Origin: Aquisphaera giovannonii
GTDB lineage: Bacteria > Planctomycetota > Planctomycetia > Isosphaerales > Isosphaeraceae
DNA length: 64,000 nucleotides
Reading direction: 5' to 3'
NCBI RefSeq assembly: GCF_008087625.1
Contig: NZ_CP042997.1
Location: 9,858,001-9,922,000, forward strand
Under the pieces are notes generated by a model that was not told the DNA's origin, did no database searches, and saw nothing but the letters and a program-made list of their open reading frames with translations. Numbering within the stretch: position 1 is the first letter of the stretch; each line of letters starts with the position of its first letter. The position numbers and the translations under genes are program-made. Shown here piece by piece: positions 29,747-46,609 of this stretch.

Positions 29747-30190
29747 TCAGGCGGACTGCCACTCGCTCTGGACCTTCACGTGGTCGCGGTCCAGGCGGAC
29801 GCCGCTGTCGACGGAGCTCACCCAGGACAGCGGGATGCGGTGGTGCTGGCCGTCGGGGCTGCCGCTCTTGGTCAGCTTGATCGTCTGGCCCTCGACGTGA
29901 TCGACGGTGCCGACCTTCGTGCCGCACGAGGCATAGACGTCCATGTGCTCGCGGATGCCGGAGGCGGACGCGGAGGACGTCGCGTGCTCGAACTTGTCCT
30001 TCAGCTCCTCGGCCTTGTGCCCGGCGCGCTGGGTGGCCTCCTCCACGCGGTGGCCGGCCTCGTGGGCCTTTTCCTTCGTCCAGTCGGCGGCCTTCTCCAC
30101 CGCCTCGCCGACGCGATGCCCGACGTGGGACGCCGCGTCCGCGATCTTGTGGCCCACGTCTTCCAGCTTGTCCTTGATGTTCTCGGCCAT
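29747..30190 (-). CDS. LEA-like helical region fused to a DUF2171 domain
   Basis: A 147-residue protein starting at 30190 (MAENIKDKLEDVGHK), with GAGGAGG upstream. Residues 1-75 are a hydrophilic amphipathic helix with an 11-residue-like LEA group 3 pattern (WTKEKAHEAGHRVEEATQRA, GHKAEELKDKFEHA). Residues about 80-147 match DUF2171: MDVYASCGTKVGTVDHVEG, then KLTKSGSPDGQHHRIPLSWV, a PRC-barrel-like beta domain. The helical part is clearly paralogous to the 76-residue protein encoded divergently at 30419. LEA-type helices protect proteins and membranes on drying. The gene has a very good sigma-54-type promoter at 30265-30280 and its own terminator. Confidence 0.85.
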   Translation of the reverse strand: MAENIKDKLEDVGHKIADAASHVGHRVGEAVEKAADWTKEKAHEAGHRVEEATQRAGHKAEELKDKFEHATSSASASGIREHMDVYASCGTKVGTVDHVEGQTIKLTKSGSPDGQHHRIPLSWVSSVDSGVRLDRDHVKVQSEWQSA

Positions 30191-30264
30191 GACGGCCTCC
30201 TCGCTCGCTGAGGTTGGAAAGATCCTACTGCCCCGCCCGGGGCGGCTGTCTGAAGAAACGCAAA

Positions 30265-30280
30265 TGCAAAGAACGGGCCA
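30265..30280 (-). promoter_or_regulatory. Sigma-54-type -24/-12 promoter for the DUF2171 gene
   Basis: On the minus strand the sequence TGGCCCGTTCTTTGCA fits the sigma-54 consensus TGGCACG-N4-TTGCA with a single mismatch and exact spacing. The start codon is 75 bases downstream. Confidence 0.75.
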
Positions 30281-30320
30281 AACAGCCAGACGGGACCGAC
30301 CGGCGTGAACTCCCCGGCGA

Positions 30321-30336
30321 CGGCACATTGTTTGCT
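30321..30336 (+). promoter_or_regulatory. Sigma-54-type -24/-12 promoter for the LEA-like gene
   Basis: CGGCACATTGTTTGCT matches TGGCACG-N4-TTGCW at all but two positions (first and seventh) with exact spacing of GG and GC. It lies 83 bases before the start at 30419 and faces away from the other sigma-54-type element, 40 bases to the left. Confidence 0.72.
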
Positions 30337-30418
30337 TTTAAGAAACCCGACCGGGCCGCCGCGGCGGACACGCGACGGCCATGAACATCCCGGAATCTGA
30401 CGACGCAAGGGAGAGACG

Positions 30419-30649
30419 ATGTCGGACATCAAGCAGAAGGTCGAGGACGCGGGCCACAAGGTCGCCGAGAAGGCCAACGAGGTCGGGCACGCCGCGGCCG
30501 AGAAGGTGCGCGAGGCCAGCAACAAGGCGGGCGAGGCCGCGGGCCGCGTCGGCGACTGGGCGAAGGAGAAGGCCCACGAGACCGGCAACAAGCTCGAGGA
30601 GGCGGGCGACGCCGCCAAGCGGAAGCTGGACGACGCCGCCAACGACTGA
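30419..30649 (+). CDS. Small LEA-like hydrophilic helical protein
   Basis: A 76-residue protein with GGGAGAG before the ATG. The whole chain is Ala/Lys/Glu-rich amphipathic helix without aromatic core (VEDAGHKVAEKANEVGHAAA, WAKEKAHETGNKLEEAGD). It shares the GHK, VGH, EKAHE-G and EEA spacing with the first half of the divergent DUF2171 protein, so one derives from the other by duplication. A protective role during drying, osmotic or stationary-phase stress is likely from family knowledge. A sigma-54-type promoter precedes it and a strong hairpin terminator follows. Confidence 0.82.
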   Translation: MSDIKQKVEDAGHKVAEKANEVGHAAAEKVREASNKAGEAAGRVGDWAKEKAHETGNKLEEAGDAAKRKLDDAAND

Positions 30650-35403: not shown

Positions 35404-36534
35404 TCACACGTCCACGACCATCACGTCCACGCCCGCGGAATGGTCGACGAGGTGCTCGAGGATGGTGCCGCCTAGGATGCGGCGATACCAGGGCCGGCGG
35501 GTCTTGCCCATGACGACGATGCGGATGTCGTACTCGCGGGTGAAGGCGAGGATCGTGCGGACGACGTCCGGGCCCTTGAAGGTCATCGGCACGCCGCCGA
35601 GCTGCTGGGCCAGCTCGAGGTTCTTGCCGATCGCCCGCTGCGTGGCGGCGTCCACGCGCGTCAGGTCCTCGGCCGGCGTCTGGATGTAGACCGCGTACCA
35701 GGGGGCGTTCAGCCGGTCGGCCAGTCGGGCGGCCTTGCGGAGCAGCGCCGGGGCGTTCGGGCTCCGGCTGGAGAGGCCCACCATCAGGCGATCGGTCGCG
35801 GACATCGGCGCGCGATCGGCCTCGGCGCGGCGGTTGTGGCGGTCGATCAGGTGGGCCATCTCCGAGAGGGTGATCTCCCGGAGCCGCGTCAGGTTCCCGG
35901 GCGTGAAGAAGTTCTCCATCGCCCGCTCCACGCGCTCCGGCGGGTACACCTTGCCCGACCGCATCCGCTCCAGCAGGTCCTCCGCCGAGAGGTCGACGTT
36001 GACGATCTGGTCCGCCTCCGCGATGACCGAATCGGGCAGGCGCTCCTTCACCTTCACGCCGGTGAATCGCTCCACCTGGTCGTACAGGCTCTCCAGGTGC
36101 TGGACGTTCACCGTCGTGATCACGTGGATGCCGGCCCGCAGCAGCTCCTCGACGTCCTGGTACCGCTTGGCGAACCGGCTGCCCGGGGCATTCGTGTGGG
36201 CGAGCTCGTCCACCAGGCAGACCGTCGGACGCCTCGCGAGCACGGCGTCCAGGTCCATCTCGCGGAGCGTCACGCCGCGGTACTCGATCTCGCGAGGGGG
36301 GATGATGGGCAGGTCCTTGACCTGCTCCGCCGTCTCCGCCCGGCCGTGCGTCTCCACCAGGCCGATCGCCACGTCCACGCCCTGCTTGCTCAGGCGGTTG
36401 CCCTCGCGGAGCATGGCGTACGTCTTGCCCACCCCGGCGTTGGAGCCGAGGTAGACCTTCAGCCGGCCCCGCTCCTGGCGGCGGATCAGTTGGAGGAATT
36501 GCTCGGGGGACGGGCGGGCGGCTTCCACGGGCAT
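35404..36534 (-). CDS. kdpD: Kinase-less KdpD: KdpD N-terminal and universal stress domains only
   Basis: A 376-residue protein; the start at 36534 (MPVEAARPSPEQF) is chosen for the GGGGAGGG ribosome site. The KdpD domain fills about 20-230 with a Walker A loop (YLGSNAGVGKTYAML), VETHGRAETAEQVKDLP, LVDELAHTNAPGSRFAKRYQ and HVITTVNVQHLESL. A universal stress protein domain follows (about 250-376). The protein ends there: the four membrane helices, GAF and histidine kinase parts of full KdpD (about 900 residues) are absent, so it cannot phosphorylate a regulator itself. It may sense potassium or nucleotides and work with the separate kinase at 42768-44633. It overlaps no neighbour; kdpC ends 18 bases upstream. 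Confidence 0.92.
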   Translation of the reverse strand: MPVEAARPSPEQFLQLIRRQERGRLKVYLGSNAGVGKTYAMLREGNRLSKQGVDVAIGLVETHGRAETAEQVKDLPIIPPREIEYRGVTLREMDLDAVLARRPTVCLVDELAHTNAPGSRFAKRYQDVEELLRAGIHVITTVNVQHLESLYDQVERFTGVKVKERLPDSVIAEADQIVNVDLSAEDLLERMRSGKVYPPERVERAMENFFTPGNLTRLREITLSEMAHLIDRHNRRAEADRAPMSATDRLMVGLSSRSPNAPALLRKAARLADRLNAPWYAVYIQTPAEDLTRVDAATQRAIGKNLELAQQLGGVPMTFKGPDVVRTILAFTREYDIRIVVMGKTRRPWYRRILGGTILEHLVDHSAGVDVMVVDV

Positions 36535-36551
36535 CGGCTGGTCCCTCCCCC

Positions 36552-37139
36552 TCAATGAGACTGCGGCAGATCATCCAGCGCCAGGTTCAGCCGCAGGACG
36601 TTCACCCGCGGCGGCGCCCCGATGATCGCGCCGGAGGTCTCCACGTGGGCGTCGATCAGCGCCGCGATCCTCTCCACCGGGAGGCCGCGGGCCGCGGCGA
36701 CCCGAGCCGCCTGGTAGCGGGCCGCCTCCGGGCTGATGTCGGGGTCGAGGCCGGATCCCGAGGTCGTGACCAGGTCCACGGGGATCGGCTCCGACGCCTT
36801 GACGCCCGAGGACTGCCGGAGCGTCTTCACCTGCGCCTCGATCCGCTCCCGCAGCGCCGGGTTCGTCGTCGCGAGGTTGGAGCCGCCGGCGGCGTCCGCG
36901 GCGTAGCCGTTGGGGCCGGCCGCGGAGGGACGCGGGGCGAAGTACTTCTCGGACGCGAACGGCTGGGCGATCAGTGTCGAGCCGACGACCCGCCCCTCGC
37001 GGCGGATCAGGCTGCCGCGGGCCTGGTCGGGGAAGAGCAGGTTCCCCGCGCCGAGGACCACGAGCGGATACGCGACGGCGCAGAGGACGAACGTCACGAC
37101 GCAGGCCAGCAGGGCATGGACGGTCTCGCGAATCATCAT
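36552..37139 (-). CDS. kdpC: Potassium-transporting ATPase subunit C
   Basis: A 195-residue KdpC of normal length. One N-terminal membrane helix (VVTFVLCAVAYPLVVLGAGNLLF) is followed by the family blocks GSTLIAQPFASEKYFAPRPS, TSGSGLDPDISPEAARYQAA and VNVLRLNLALDDL. KdpC stabilises the complex and helps ATP binding by KdpB. It starts 7 bases after the kdpB stop, so translation is probably coupled. An AAGGGA site precedes the paired ATG ATG start. Confidence 0.97.
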   Translation of the reverse strand: MMIRETVHALLACVVTFVLCAVAYPLVVLGAGNLLFPDQARGSLIRREGRVVGSTLIAQPFASEKYFAPRPSAAGPNGYAADAAGGSNLATTNPALRERIEAQVKTLRQSSGVKASEPIPVDLVTTSGSGLDPDISPEAARYQAARVAAARGLPVERIAALIDAHVETSGAIIGAPPRVNVLRLNLALDDLPQSH

Positions 37140-37146
37140 CGTTCCC

Positions 37147-39288
37147 TTACTTGATACCGACCAGCGCCAGGAGCGGGTCGATGGCGATGTCGATGAGCTT
37201 GATGCCGACGAACGGGGCGATGACGCCCCCCAGGCCGTAGATGAGCAGGTTGCGGCGGAGCAGGGCCCCGGCGCCGACCGGCCGGTACGTCACGCCCTTC
37301 AGCGCGATCGGGATCAGCATCGGGATGATGATCGCATTGAAGATGACCGCCGCCAGGATCGCGGAGTAGGCGCCTCCTCGCGTCGCCAGGCCCATCAGAT
37401 CCAGGACCTTGAGCTCGGGCAGGGTGACGATGAACATGGCCGGGATGACGGCGAAGTACTTGGCCAGGTCGTTGGCGATCGAGAACGTGGTCAGCGCCCC
37501 GCGGGTCATCAGGAGCTGCTTGCCGATCTCGACGACCTCGATGAGCTTGGTCGGGTCGCTGTCGAGGTCGACCATGTTGCCGGCCTCCTTGGCGGCCTGG
37601 GTCCCGCTGTTCATCGCCACGCCGATGTCCGCCTGGGCGAGCGCCGGGGCGTCGTTCGTGCCGTCGCCCATCATGGCGACGAGCTTGCCGCCTTCCTGCT
37701 CCTTTCGGATGTAGGCGAGCTTGGCCTCGGGGGTGGCCTGGGCGATGTAGTCGTCCACGCCGGCCTTCTCCGCGATGGCCGCGGCGGTAAGCCGGTTGTC
37801 GCCGGTGACCATCACGACCCGGAGCCCCATCTGGCGGAGCCGGGCGAAGCGGTCGCGGATGCCGGGCTTGAGCACGTCCTCCAGCTTGACCACGCCGAGG
37901 ATCCGGGCGTCCTCGGCCACCGCCAGCGGCGTCGCGCCGCCGGAGGCGATCACGTCCACCGCCTGCTGGTAGCCGTCGGGGATGACGCCCCCCTGCTCGC
38001 GGACGTAGCCCGCGACGGTGTCCGGCGCACCCTTGCGGAGCCTCGGCCCGCCGGGCAGGTCGACGCCGCTCATGCGGGTCTGGGCGGTGAAGTCGATGAA
38101 CCGGGAGCCGGCCGGGGCCTCCGCCTCCACGGCCGCCTGCTGGCGGGCCAGGTCCAGGATGCTCCGGCCCTCGGGGGTGGAGTCGGCCATCGACGCCAGC
38201 CCGGCGGCGCGGGCGAGCTCGCGGGCCGAGGCCCCGGCCAGCGGCGCGAACTGCGTGGCCCGGCGGTTGCCGATGGTGATCGTCCCGGTCTTGTCCAGGA
38301 GCAGCGTGTCGATGTCGCCGGCCACCTCCACCGCCTTGCCGCTCTTGGCGATCAGGTTCGCCGCCAGCGCCCGGTCCATGCCGGCGATGCCGATCGCCGC
38401 CAGCAGCGCCCCGATCGTCGTGGGGATCAGGCAGACGAGCAGGGCGACGAGCGTCGGGATGTCCAGCGTCAGGTCGAAGTAGCGGGCCATCGGGTAGAGG
38501 GCCGCGGTCACGATCAGGAAGATGAGCGAGAAGGCGGCCAGCACGATCGTCAGCGCGATCTCATTCGGCGTCTTCTGGCGGCTGGCGCCCTCGACCAGGG
38601 CGATCATCTTGTCCAGGAAGCTCTGCCCCGGCTCGGCCGTCACCCGGATCACGATCCGGTCCGAGAGGACGCGGGTGCCGCCGGTGACGCCCGAGTGGTC
38701 GCCGCCGGCCTCGCGGATCACCGGCGCGCTCTCGCCGGTGATGGCCGATTCGTCCACCGAGGCCACGCCCACGACGACCTCGCCGTCGGACGGGATCACC
38801 TGCCCGGCCTCCACGAGGACGTGGTCGCCGGCGCGGAGAGTGGTCGACGAGACGAACTCCCCGGCGTCGCCTTCCGGGTCGCGGAGCCGGAACGCGGGCG
38901 TGTCGGCCCGGGTGGCCCGCAGGCTGTCCGCCTGGGCCTTGCCCCGGGCCTCGGCCAGGGCGGAGGCGAAGTTGGCGAAGAGCACGGTCAGGAAGAGCAG
39001 GAGCGTGAGCGTCGCCTGGTAGAGGATCAGGCCGATCTCCGCGCCCTGGACGATCGACTGCACGGTGACGATCGCCGTCAGCACCGTGCCGACCTCGACG
39101 AGGAACATGACCGGGTTGCGGGCCATCTCCCGCGGGTCGAGCATCCGGAACGACTGGGCGGTCGCCATCCGGACCAGTGACGGCTCGAACAGGCGGAGCT
39201 TCCGCGTGCTCCGCCGCTGGAGCTTGAACGCCTGGACGTCGCCGGCGTCCCGGGTGGCCGTTGTGGGGGTCTCGATATCGAGGCTCAT
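37147..39288 (-). CDS. kdpB: Potassium-transporting ATPase ATP-binding subunit
   Basis: A 713-residue P-type ATPase, the energy-coupling subunit of KdpFABC. The phosphorylated aspartate is Asp332 in [13 protein letters not shown]. The actuator loop [20 protein letters not shown], the hinge [20 protein letters not shown] and [20 protein letters not shown] are intact. GAGAGGAA forms the ribosome site. The 225-base gap from kdpA, unusual for this operon, contains a dispersed inverted repeat that might attenuate or process the transcript. Confidence 0.98.
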
Positions 39289-39403
39289 CGCGCTTGGTTC
39301 CTCTCCTTCGGAGGATGCGTATCTTTCATCGCAATCGGTCGTGTTTCACCAGGGCCGGACGGCGGACCAGTCGTGCGGCCGGCGGCGCCAATTTCGCTTC
39401 CCT

Positions 39404-44994: not shown

Positions 44995-45160
44995 CGTCGG
45001 CATCCCTTCGAGGCCGCGGGGGCGTCGGGGTGGATTCTCGGCCCGTCGATCTCGCCCACCGGGTCGAGATCCCCGGCATCGGCCCCGCGGCATGAGGGGG
45101 GGGAAAAGCAAGGGCCATGCCGCATCCCCGCCCCGATCCCAAGTCACCATCGACAAGGGC

Positions 45161-45166: not shown

Positions 45167-45256
45167 TCGAATGGAGCCGATCCGGGCGTCATCCCTCCCC
45201 GGCCGCCATCGTGCGGAATGCACGACGGCCATTGCAGGCTGCACGACGGCCTCCCC

Positions 45257-46609
45257 TCAGAGCCCGAACTGCTTCCGCTTGCGGTAGAGCGTGCTCGGGT
45301 CGATGCCGAGGATGTGGGCGGCCTCCTCGCGGCTGTTCGTCGATCCGAGGATCCGGCGGATGTGGGCCTCCTCCAGGCGGTCGAGGCTGACCTGGGCGCC
45401 GACCTCGACGCGGTCGCCGGCGGCCGAGGGGCCGGCCCCGGCGCGGGGGGAGGCGATGCGATCCGGGAGGTCGGCCAGGCCGACCTCTGGGCCCTCGGCG
45501 AGGATCGCCCCGCGCTCGATCGTGTTCCGCAGCTCGCGGAGGTTGCCCGGCCACGGGTGCCGCGTCATCGCCGCGCGGGCCTCGTCGGTGAACCGCGTCA
45601 GCCTCCTCCCGGTCTGCCGGGCGAAGAAGGCGAGGAGGCGGTCGGCCAGGTCCGGCAAGTCGGTGCGGGCCCGGAGCGGCGGCAGGTGGATCTCGACGAC
45701 GTTGAGCCGGTAGAAGAGGTCCTCGCGGAAGGTGCCGGCGGCGACGGCCGCCTCCAGGTCGCGGTTCGTCGCGGCGACGATCCGGACGTCCGCGGCTCGC
45801 GTGGCGGTGTCGCCCACGCGCTCGTATTTCCGCTCCTGGAGGAACCGGAGCAGCTTCGGCTGCAGGGGCGTGGGCAGGTCGCCCACCTCGTCGAGGAAGA
45901 GCGTGCCCCCCTCCGCCACCGAGACCTTGCCGGCGGCGTCGCGGACGGCGCTGGTGAAGGCGCCGCGGACGTGGCCGAACAGCTCGCTCTCCAGCAGCTC
46001 GGCACTCAGGCTGGGGCAGCTCACCGTGACGAACGGGCCCTGGGCCCGCTTGCTCCAGGCGTGGAGCGCCCGAGCCAGGACGCCCTTGCCGGTGCCGCTC
46101 TCGCCGCGGACCAGGACGGCGGCCTCGGCCTGCGCGGCACGCCTGGCCAGTTCGAACGCCCGGCGCGTCGCGGGGTCGGGGCTGTCCAGCTCGGCCTCGG
46201 GGATCTCCGCGCGGACCTGGTCTTCCAGGTCGGCCACGCGGTCCTTCAGCCCCCGCAGCCGCCCCACGCGCTCGAGGATCGCCCGCACCTGCGCCGGGGT
46301 GAACGGCTTGGGCAGGAAATCGAACGCCCCCCGCCGCATCGCCTCCACGGCCAGGTCGATCGTCGCGTGCGCCGTGATGATCACGATCGCCAGCCGCGGC
46401 AAGTGGGCGAGCAGCGGCTCGATCAGGTCGAGCCCCGATTCCGTCCCGAGCCGCACGTCCACGAGCGCGACGTCGAAGCCCCCCTTCCCCGCCGCCGCGA
46501 CCGCGGCCGGGACCGAGCCCGCCTCCTCGACGGCATGCCCGCCGACCTCGAACGTCGCCCGCAGCGTCCGCCGGATGTTCGGCTCGTCGTCGACGATCAG
46601 GATCCTCAT
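45257..46609 (-). CDS. NtrC-family sigma-54-dependent response regulator
   Basis: A 450-residue three-domain regulator; the start at 46609 (MRILIVDDEPNIRR) is set by the receiver. The phospho-acceptor is Asp51 (VALVDVRLG). The AAA+ domain has Walker A GESGTGKG at 169-176, Walker B GGTLFLDE at 234-241 and the sensor region AATNRDLE. The sigma-54 contact loop reads GAFTSA at 216-221 where GAFTGA is usual. A Fis-type helix-turn-helix ends the protein (SREEAAHILGIDPSTLYRKR). It activates sigma-54 promoters from upstream sites. The gene lies next to the kinase and kdp genes and is the only sigma-54 activator in the window. Confidence 0.95.
   Translation of the reverse strand: MRILIVDDEPNIRRTLRATFEVGGHAVEEAGSVPAAVAAAGKGGFDVALVDVRLGTESGLDLIEPLLAHLPRLAIVIITAHATIDLAVEAMRRGAFDFLPKPFTPAQVRAILERVGRLRGLKDRVADLEDQVRAEIPEAELDSPDPATRRAFELARRAAQAEAAVLVRGESGTGKGVLARALHAWSKRAQGPFVTVSCPSLSAELLESELFGHVRGAFTSAVRDAAGKVSVAEGGTLFLDEVGDLPTPLQPKLLRFLQERKYERVGDTATRAADVRIVAATNRDLEAAVAAGTFREDLFYRLNVVEIHLPPLRARTDLPDLADRLLAFFARQTGRRLTRFTDEARAAMTRHPWPGNLRELRNTIERGAILAEGPEVGLADLPDRIASPRAGAGPSAAGDRVEVGAQVSLDRLEEAHIRRILGSTNSREEAAHILGIDPSTLYRKRKQFGL

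Follow-up and report, generated by a model that had tools for sequence, protein, structure and literature searches.

Conserved, divergent sigma-54-type promoters between two LEA-like genes of Aquisphaera giovannonii and a predicted sigma-54 regulon of small stress proteins in the Isosphaeraceae

Results

The intergenic region between two genes for LEA-like helical proteins of Aquisphaera giovannonii very probably contains two genuine, divergent sigma-54 promoters, which would be opened by an activator and, judging from sequence comparison, would belong to a wider regulon of small stress proteins in the Isosphaeraceae. The two genes lie in a window of 64,000 nucleotides from the 10.5-Mb genome of a congener of Aquisphaera insulae. 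Gene A (29747..30190, minus strand, ATG at 30190) encodes a protein of 147 amino acids with LEA-like amphipathic helices at residues ~4-74 and a C-terminal DUF2171 domain at residues 79-140. Gene B (30419..30649, plus strand, ATG at 30419) encodes a LEA-like helical protein of 76 amino acids, whose sequence is related to the N-terminal module of the gene A product. A BLASTP comparison (45% identity over 67 amino acids, E 2e-15) bears out the helical module that a preliminary description of this DNA had ascribed to both proteins; gene B consists of this module alone, and gene A of the same module joined to DUF2171. Gene B scored 17.6 bits (E 0.0035) against LEA_4 (PF02987), for which the Pfam cut-off is 51.1 bits, and gene A was not among the LEA_4 matches of the Pfam scan. 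Because neither gene passes this cut-off, we use "LEA-like" as a description by resemblance, with no claim of family membership.

The DUF2171 domain of gene A (PF09939), which the preliminary description had overlooked, scored 87.8 bits (E 5.7e-25) against a curated Pfam cut-off of 25 bits. In the AlphaFold model the C-terminal part forms a beta barrel with a pLDDT of ~80-90, and the helices are of low confidence. The top Foldseek matches were reaction-centre H subunits, RimM, and PRC domains, with a probability of ~1 and E-values of only ~1e-3 to 1e-2. On the basis of this model, the domain is predicted to have the PRC-barrel fold. Near the LEA-like pair, at 35404-39319 of the window, a KdpD-type sensor with a Usp domain and its adjoining genes show strong synteny with A. 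insulae.

The 228 bp between genes A and B hold two -24/-12 elements, which we compared with the consensus TGGCACG-N4-TTGC and its GG-N10-GC spacing. The element of gene A, TGGCCCGTTCTTTGCA (30265..30280, minus strand), has one mismatch and a predicted transcription start near 30254; that of gene B, CGGCACATTGTTTGCT (30321..30336, plus strand), has two mismatches and a predicted start near 30347. The elements point apart with 40 bp between them, and the GG-N10-GC spacing is exact in both, so that positions, mismatches, gap and spacing were all reproduced as first described. The predicted leaders measure ~64 nt for gene A and ~72 nt for gene B, and in both the ATG is preceded by a purine-rich stretch for ribosome binding. 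By count, the motifs in the window were at the level of chance: seven matches were found where 4.9 were expected, and eight sites compared with 10.9 in shuffled sequence, while 12 of 200 shuffles of the window produced a divergent pair no more than 150 bp apart. Genome-wide, the exact pattern TGGCNCG-N4-TTGCW occurred 13 times and its reverse 11 times, which is no enrichment. The elements are lifted above chance because they are conserved in orthologues, and not by the motif count in the window.

Both elements are kept in A. insulae, where they lie 39 bp apart. There, the CGGCACATcGTTTGC part of the gene B element is retained inside a stretch that has otherwise diverged, within which CGGCACATnGTTTGC forms a conserved block. 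DUF2171 genes were found at 19 places in the Isosphaerales, distributed over 15 of 45 genomes and seven genera. A de novo motif search made without any sigma-54 assumption on 260 bp of upstream sequence from 18 of these 19 genes (Isosphaerales/Isosphaeraceae) returned cGGCACG.cc.TTGCgtt in 18/18, with a log-likelihood of 137 compared to 52-57 for shuffled sets. When the same 260 bp were scanned directly, a site on the coding strand with at most two mismatches preceded 16/19 DUF2171 genes, rising to 19/19 at three mismatches, while for the same genes the opposite strand gave 2/19 and the region further upstream 1/19. No such site at up to two mismatches was seen before alphaproteobacterial DUF2171 genes (0/33), and cold-shock genes of the same Isosphaeraceae genomes had none (0/25). 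The hypergeometric value for 16/19 versus 0/33 is about 1e-10, an optimistic figure given the relatedness of the sequences, since the orthologues compared are not independent of one another. In the orthologues the elements are oriented toward the gene and lie at promoter distance, and the perfect TGGCACG-N4-TTGC is found at several loci. Two DUF2171 orthologues from the Gemmataceae (L063 and L064) also carry the site. The preliminary description had named the absence of the motifs from orthologous intergenic regions as grounds for rejecting its proposal; they are present in both Isosphaeraceae and Gemmataceae, and sigma-54 control of the LEA-like pair is well supported by this conservation. 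A second DUF2171 gene of the host genome (L120:1545-2432; G000:C1 at about 9294500) is fused at its C-terminal end to a long hydrophobic part and has a degenerate upstream site, GGGCGCAGGCTTTGC, with three mismatches.

Across the whole host genome, the pattern YGGCACG-N4-TTGCD was present at 14 places, compared to three for the reversed pattern. The genes that follow near-consensus sites in this genome include those for CsbD, DUF3072, a small lipoprotein, a GAF-PtsP phosphotransferase, and a histidine kinase. Family-wide, 18 of the 30 CsbD genes have a direct site, and six of the other 12 have one before a small lipoprotein gene located just upstream. The top de novo motif before CsbD genes, TGGCACg.CGcTTGC, scored 153 versus 56-61 for shuffles in a run made without coding bases, as coding starts otherwise dominate. 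Sites were likewise found for 3/4 DUF3072 genes. In several genera (L147, L150-L154, L158-L160) another site points the opposite way, toward a YqjD-like gene for a membrane-anchored helical protein, and thus back-to-back arrangements of putative sigma-54 promoters recur. The name "YqjD-like" is our reading of the sequences, with a weak DUF883_C match only. The LEA-like pair is therefore predicted to belong to a conserved sigma-54 regulon that comprises small stress proteins of the Isosphaeraceae, and this conserved set of sites before small stress-protein genes is a more interesting result than the pair itself.

Three further observations concern this wider set. The preliminary description had overlooked the sites that precede the genes for CsbD, DUF3072, lipoprotein, and YqjD-like proteins. 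Some loci hold clusters of as many as three sigma-54-type sites, which precede csbD, the small lipoprotein gene, and, divergently, the YqjD-like gene (L147, L151, L158-L160; ~400-720 bp upstream of csbD). A consensus site at G000:C1:5355897-5355912 (L108) lies ~60-90 nt before the gene for GAF-PtsP, a nitrogen-type phosphotransferase.

The sigma-54 DNA-binding domain was detected in 42/45 genomes and in 26/26 of those of good quality. RpoN and NtrC-type activator genes are both present in the host genome, in which the activator ATPase domain gave 21 matches, 15 of them strong (NtrC-type). Within the gene B leader lies a dyad, GCCGCCGC-N9-GCGACGGC (30355..30379, unstranded), 75-99 bp upstream of the -24 element of gene A, which is a candidate activator site or RNA hairpin. 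A. insulae has a counterpart, GCCGTCGC-N9-GCGGCGGC, at the same distance; the dyad was not seen in other genera. It is GC-rich and occurs elsewhere in the genome at about chance frequency, and none of its three other exact copies is near a sigma-54 site. From the sequence comparison, it is the only conserved candidate activator site for gene A. The preliminary description had placed the activator site of each promoter over or beyond the other gene, and the position of the dyad in the gene B leader plausibly fits this geometry.

The NtrC-type regulator encoded at 46609..45257 of the window was a candidate for the activator but was not adopted: neither the LEA nor the CsbD promoters contain its likely site, TCGTGC-N5-GCACGA, and the regulator itself was not found in the A. 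insulae contig stretches examined. Directly after this regulator gene, a perfect TCGTGC-N5-GCACGA dyad (45209-45225), also perfect in A. insulae, resembles a classic activator site. It lies 87 bp upstream of a second sigma-54-type site (45108-45122, minus strand), which is conserved in A. insulae (L203 17537-17551) and lies ~100 nt ahead of a small ORF and the gene for a HAMP-PAS histidine kinase.

Discussion

Sigma-54 promoters are silent until an ATP-driven activator is triggered. In the mechanism that we propose, RpoN polymerase would sit at each of the two promoters as a closed complex, and an NtrC-type AAA+ activator responding to stress would open both. The output would be two small helical proteins, namely B and, in A, the same helices carried on a PRC-barrel-type DUF2171 domain. 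The pair would belong to a wider regulon including CsbD, DUF3072, the small lipoprotein, and YqjD-like proteins, arranged partly as divergent promoter pairs. We infer that the promoters are used and that A and B may be induced together, and a single activator site might, as a hypothesis, serve both. The proteins may help to protect against water or envelope stress; a function in desiccation or osmotic protection is hypothesized from the type of protein only.

The sigma-54 promoters could also be real with A and B answering different activators or signals, the back-to-back layout being compact packing only, an alternative that we regard as possible if somewhat doubtful. No activator motif common to the upstream regions of the regulon was found, and a motif search over all upstream regions gave GC-rich palindromes modestly above shuffles, a result made untrustworthy by the relatedness of the sequences. 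In other genera (L003, L004, L005) gene A occurs singly, with a site of its own, which also favors separate control. However, A. insulae retains the pair with its spacing of 39-40 bp, and the two encoded proteins are related. In principle, distinct activators could also act on the CsbD and the DUF2171 promoters.

It is improbable that the conserved element is the site of another regulator, or of an extracytoplasmic-function sigma factor, that merely resembles a -24/-12 promoter. Planctomycetes possess many such sigma factors; yet the consensus and spacing of the element equal those of sigma-54 and emerged de novo in two unrelated gene families, and it occurs in perfect form at several loci, in a single orientation, facing the gene. 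Fortuitous matches in a GC-rich genome, with which the motif counts in the window agree, are a very remote explanation contradicted by the orthologue comparison, in which the elements are conserved at matching positions in at least seven genera with negative controls. Two genuine sigma-54 promoters thus remain our preferred reading.

The sigma-B and general stress regulons, for example that of Bacillus subtilis, carry CsbD. The predicted regulon is similar in that CsbD and other small stress proteins would be switched on together, but sigma-54 needs an ATP-driven activator, and its promoter class is unrelated to that of sigma-B. In the Planctomycetia, sigma-54 control of UspA, MscS, and chaperone genes has already been predicted (Carrera-Reyna et al. 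2025, PMC12316311). That work concerns the same bacterial class, the same promoter type, and stress genes; unlike ours, its text contains zero occurrences of CsbD, and we found in it no LEA or DUF2171 genes and no description of a divergent pair. One gene in the general stress response of Rhodopirellula baltica, RB10378, has been proposed to have a sigma-54 promoter (PMC2754498). This too is a planctomycete stress response with a proposed sigma-54 promoter, but rpoN was down-regulated under salt in that organism and no LEA or CsbD genes were discussed (PMC2754498). In a literature search with most subscription journals outside its range, we found no work combining sigma-54, desiccation, and a LEA protein, which is weak evidence; within the same range, literature on CsbD and sigma-54 concerned other bacteria only, and no report of sigma-54 control of LEA, DUF2171, or CsbD in the Planctomycetia was found.

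The control of general stress responses in planctomycetes is little understood. A conserved and easily recognized promoter before CsbD, LEA-like, DUF2171, and YqjD-like genes makes the question testable with one rpoN mutant. The Isosphaeraceae probably switch on part of their stress protection via sigma-54 in place of the usual stress sigma factors. More tentatively, sigma-54 and a single ATP-driven activator might govern the general stress and water-loss response of the Isosphaeraceae, and perhaps of planctomycetes broadly, replacing sigma-B, sigma-S, or EcfG; the output would comprise LEA/PRC-barrel, CsbD, DUF3072, lipoprotein, and YqjD-like proteins. Control of such genes by sigma-54 would be an unusual use of this factor, for protective proteins that are normally under sigma-B, sigma-S, or similar factors.
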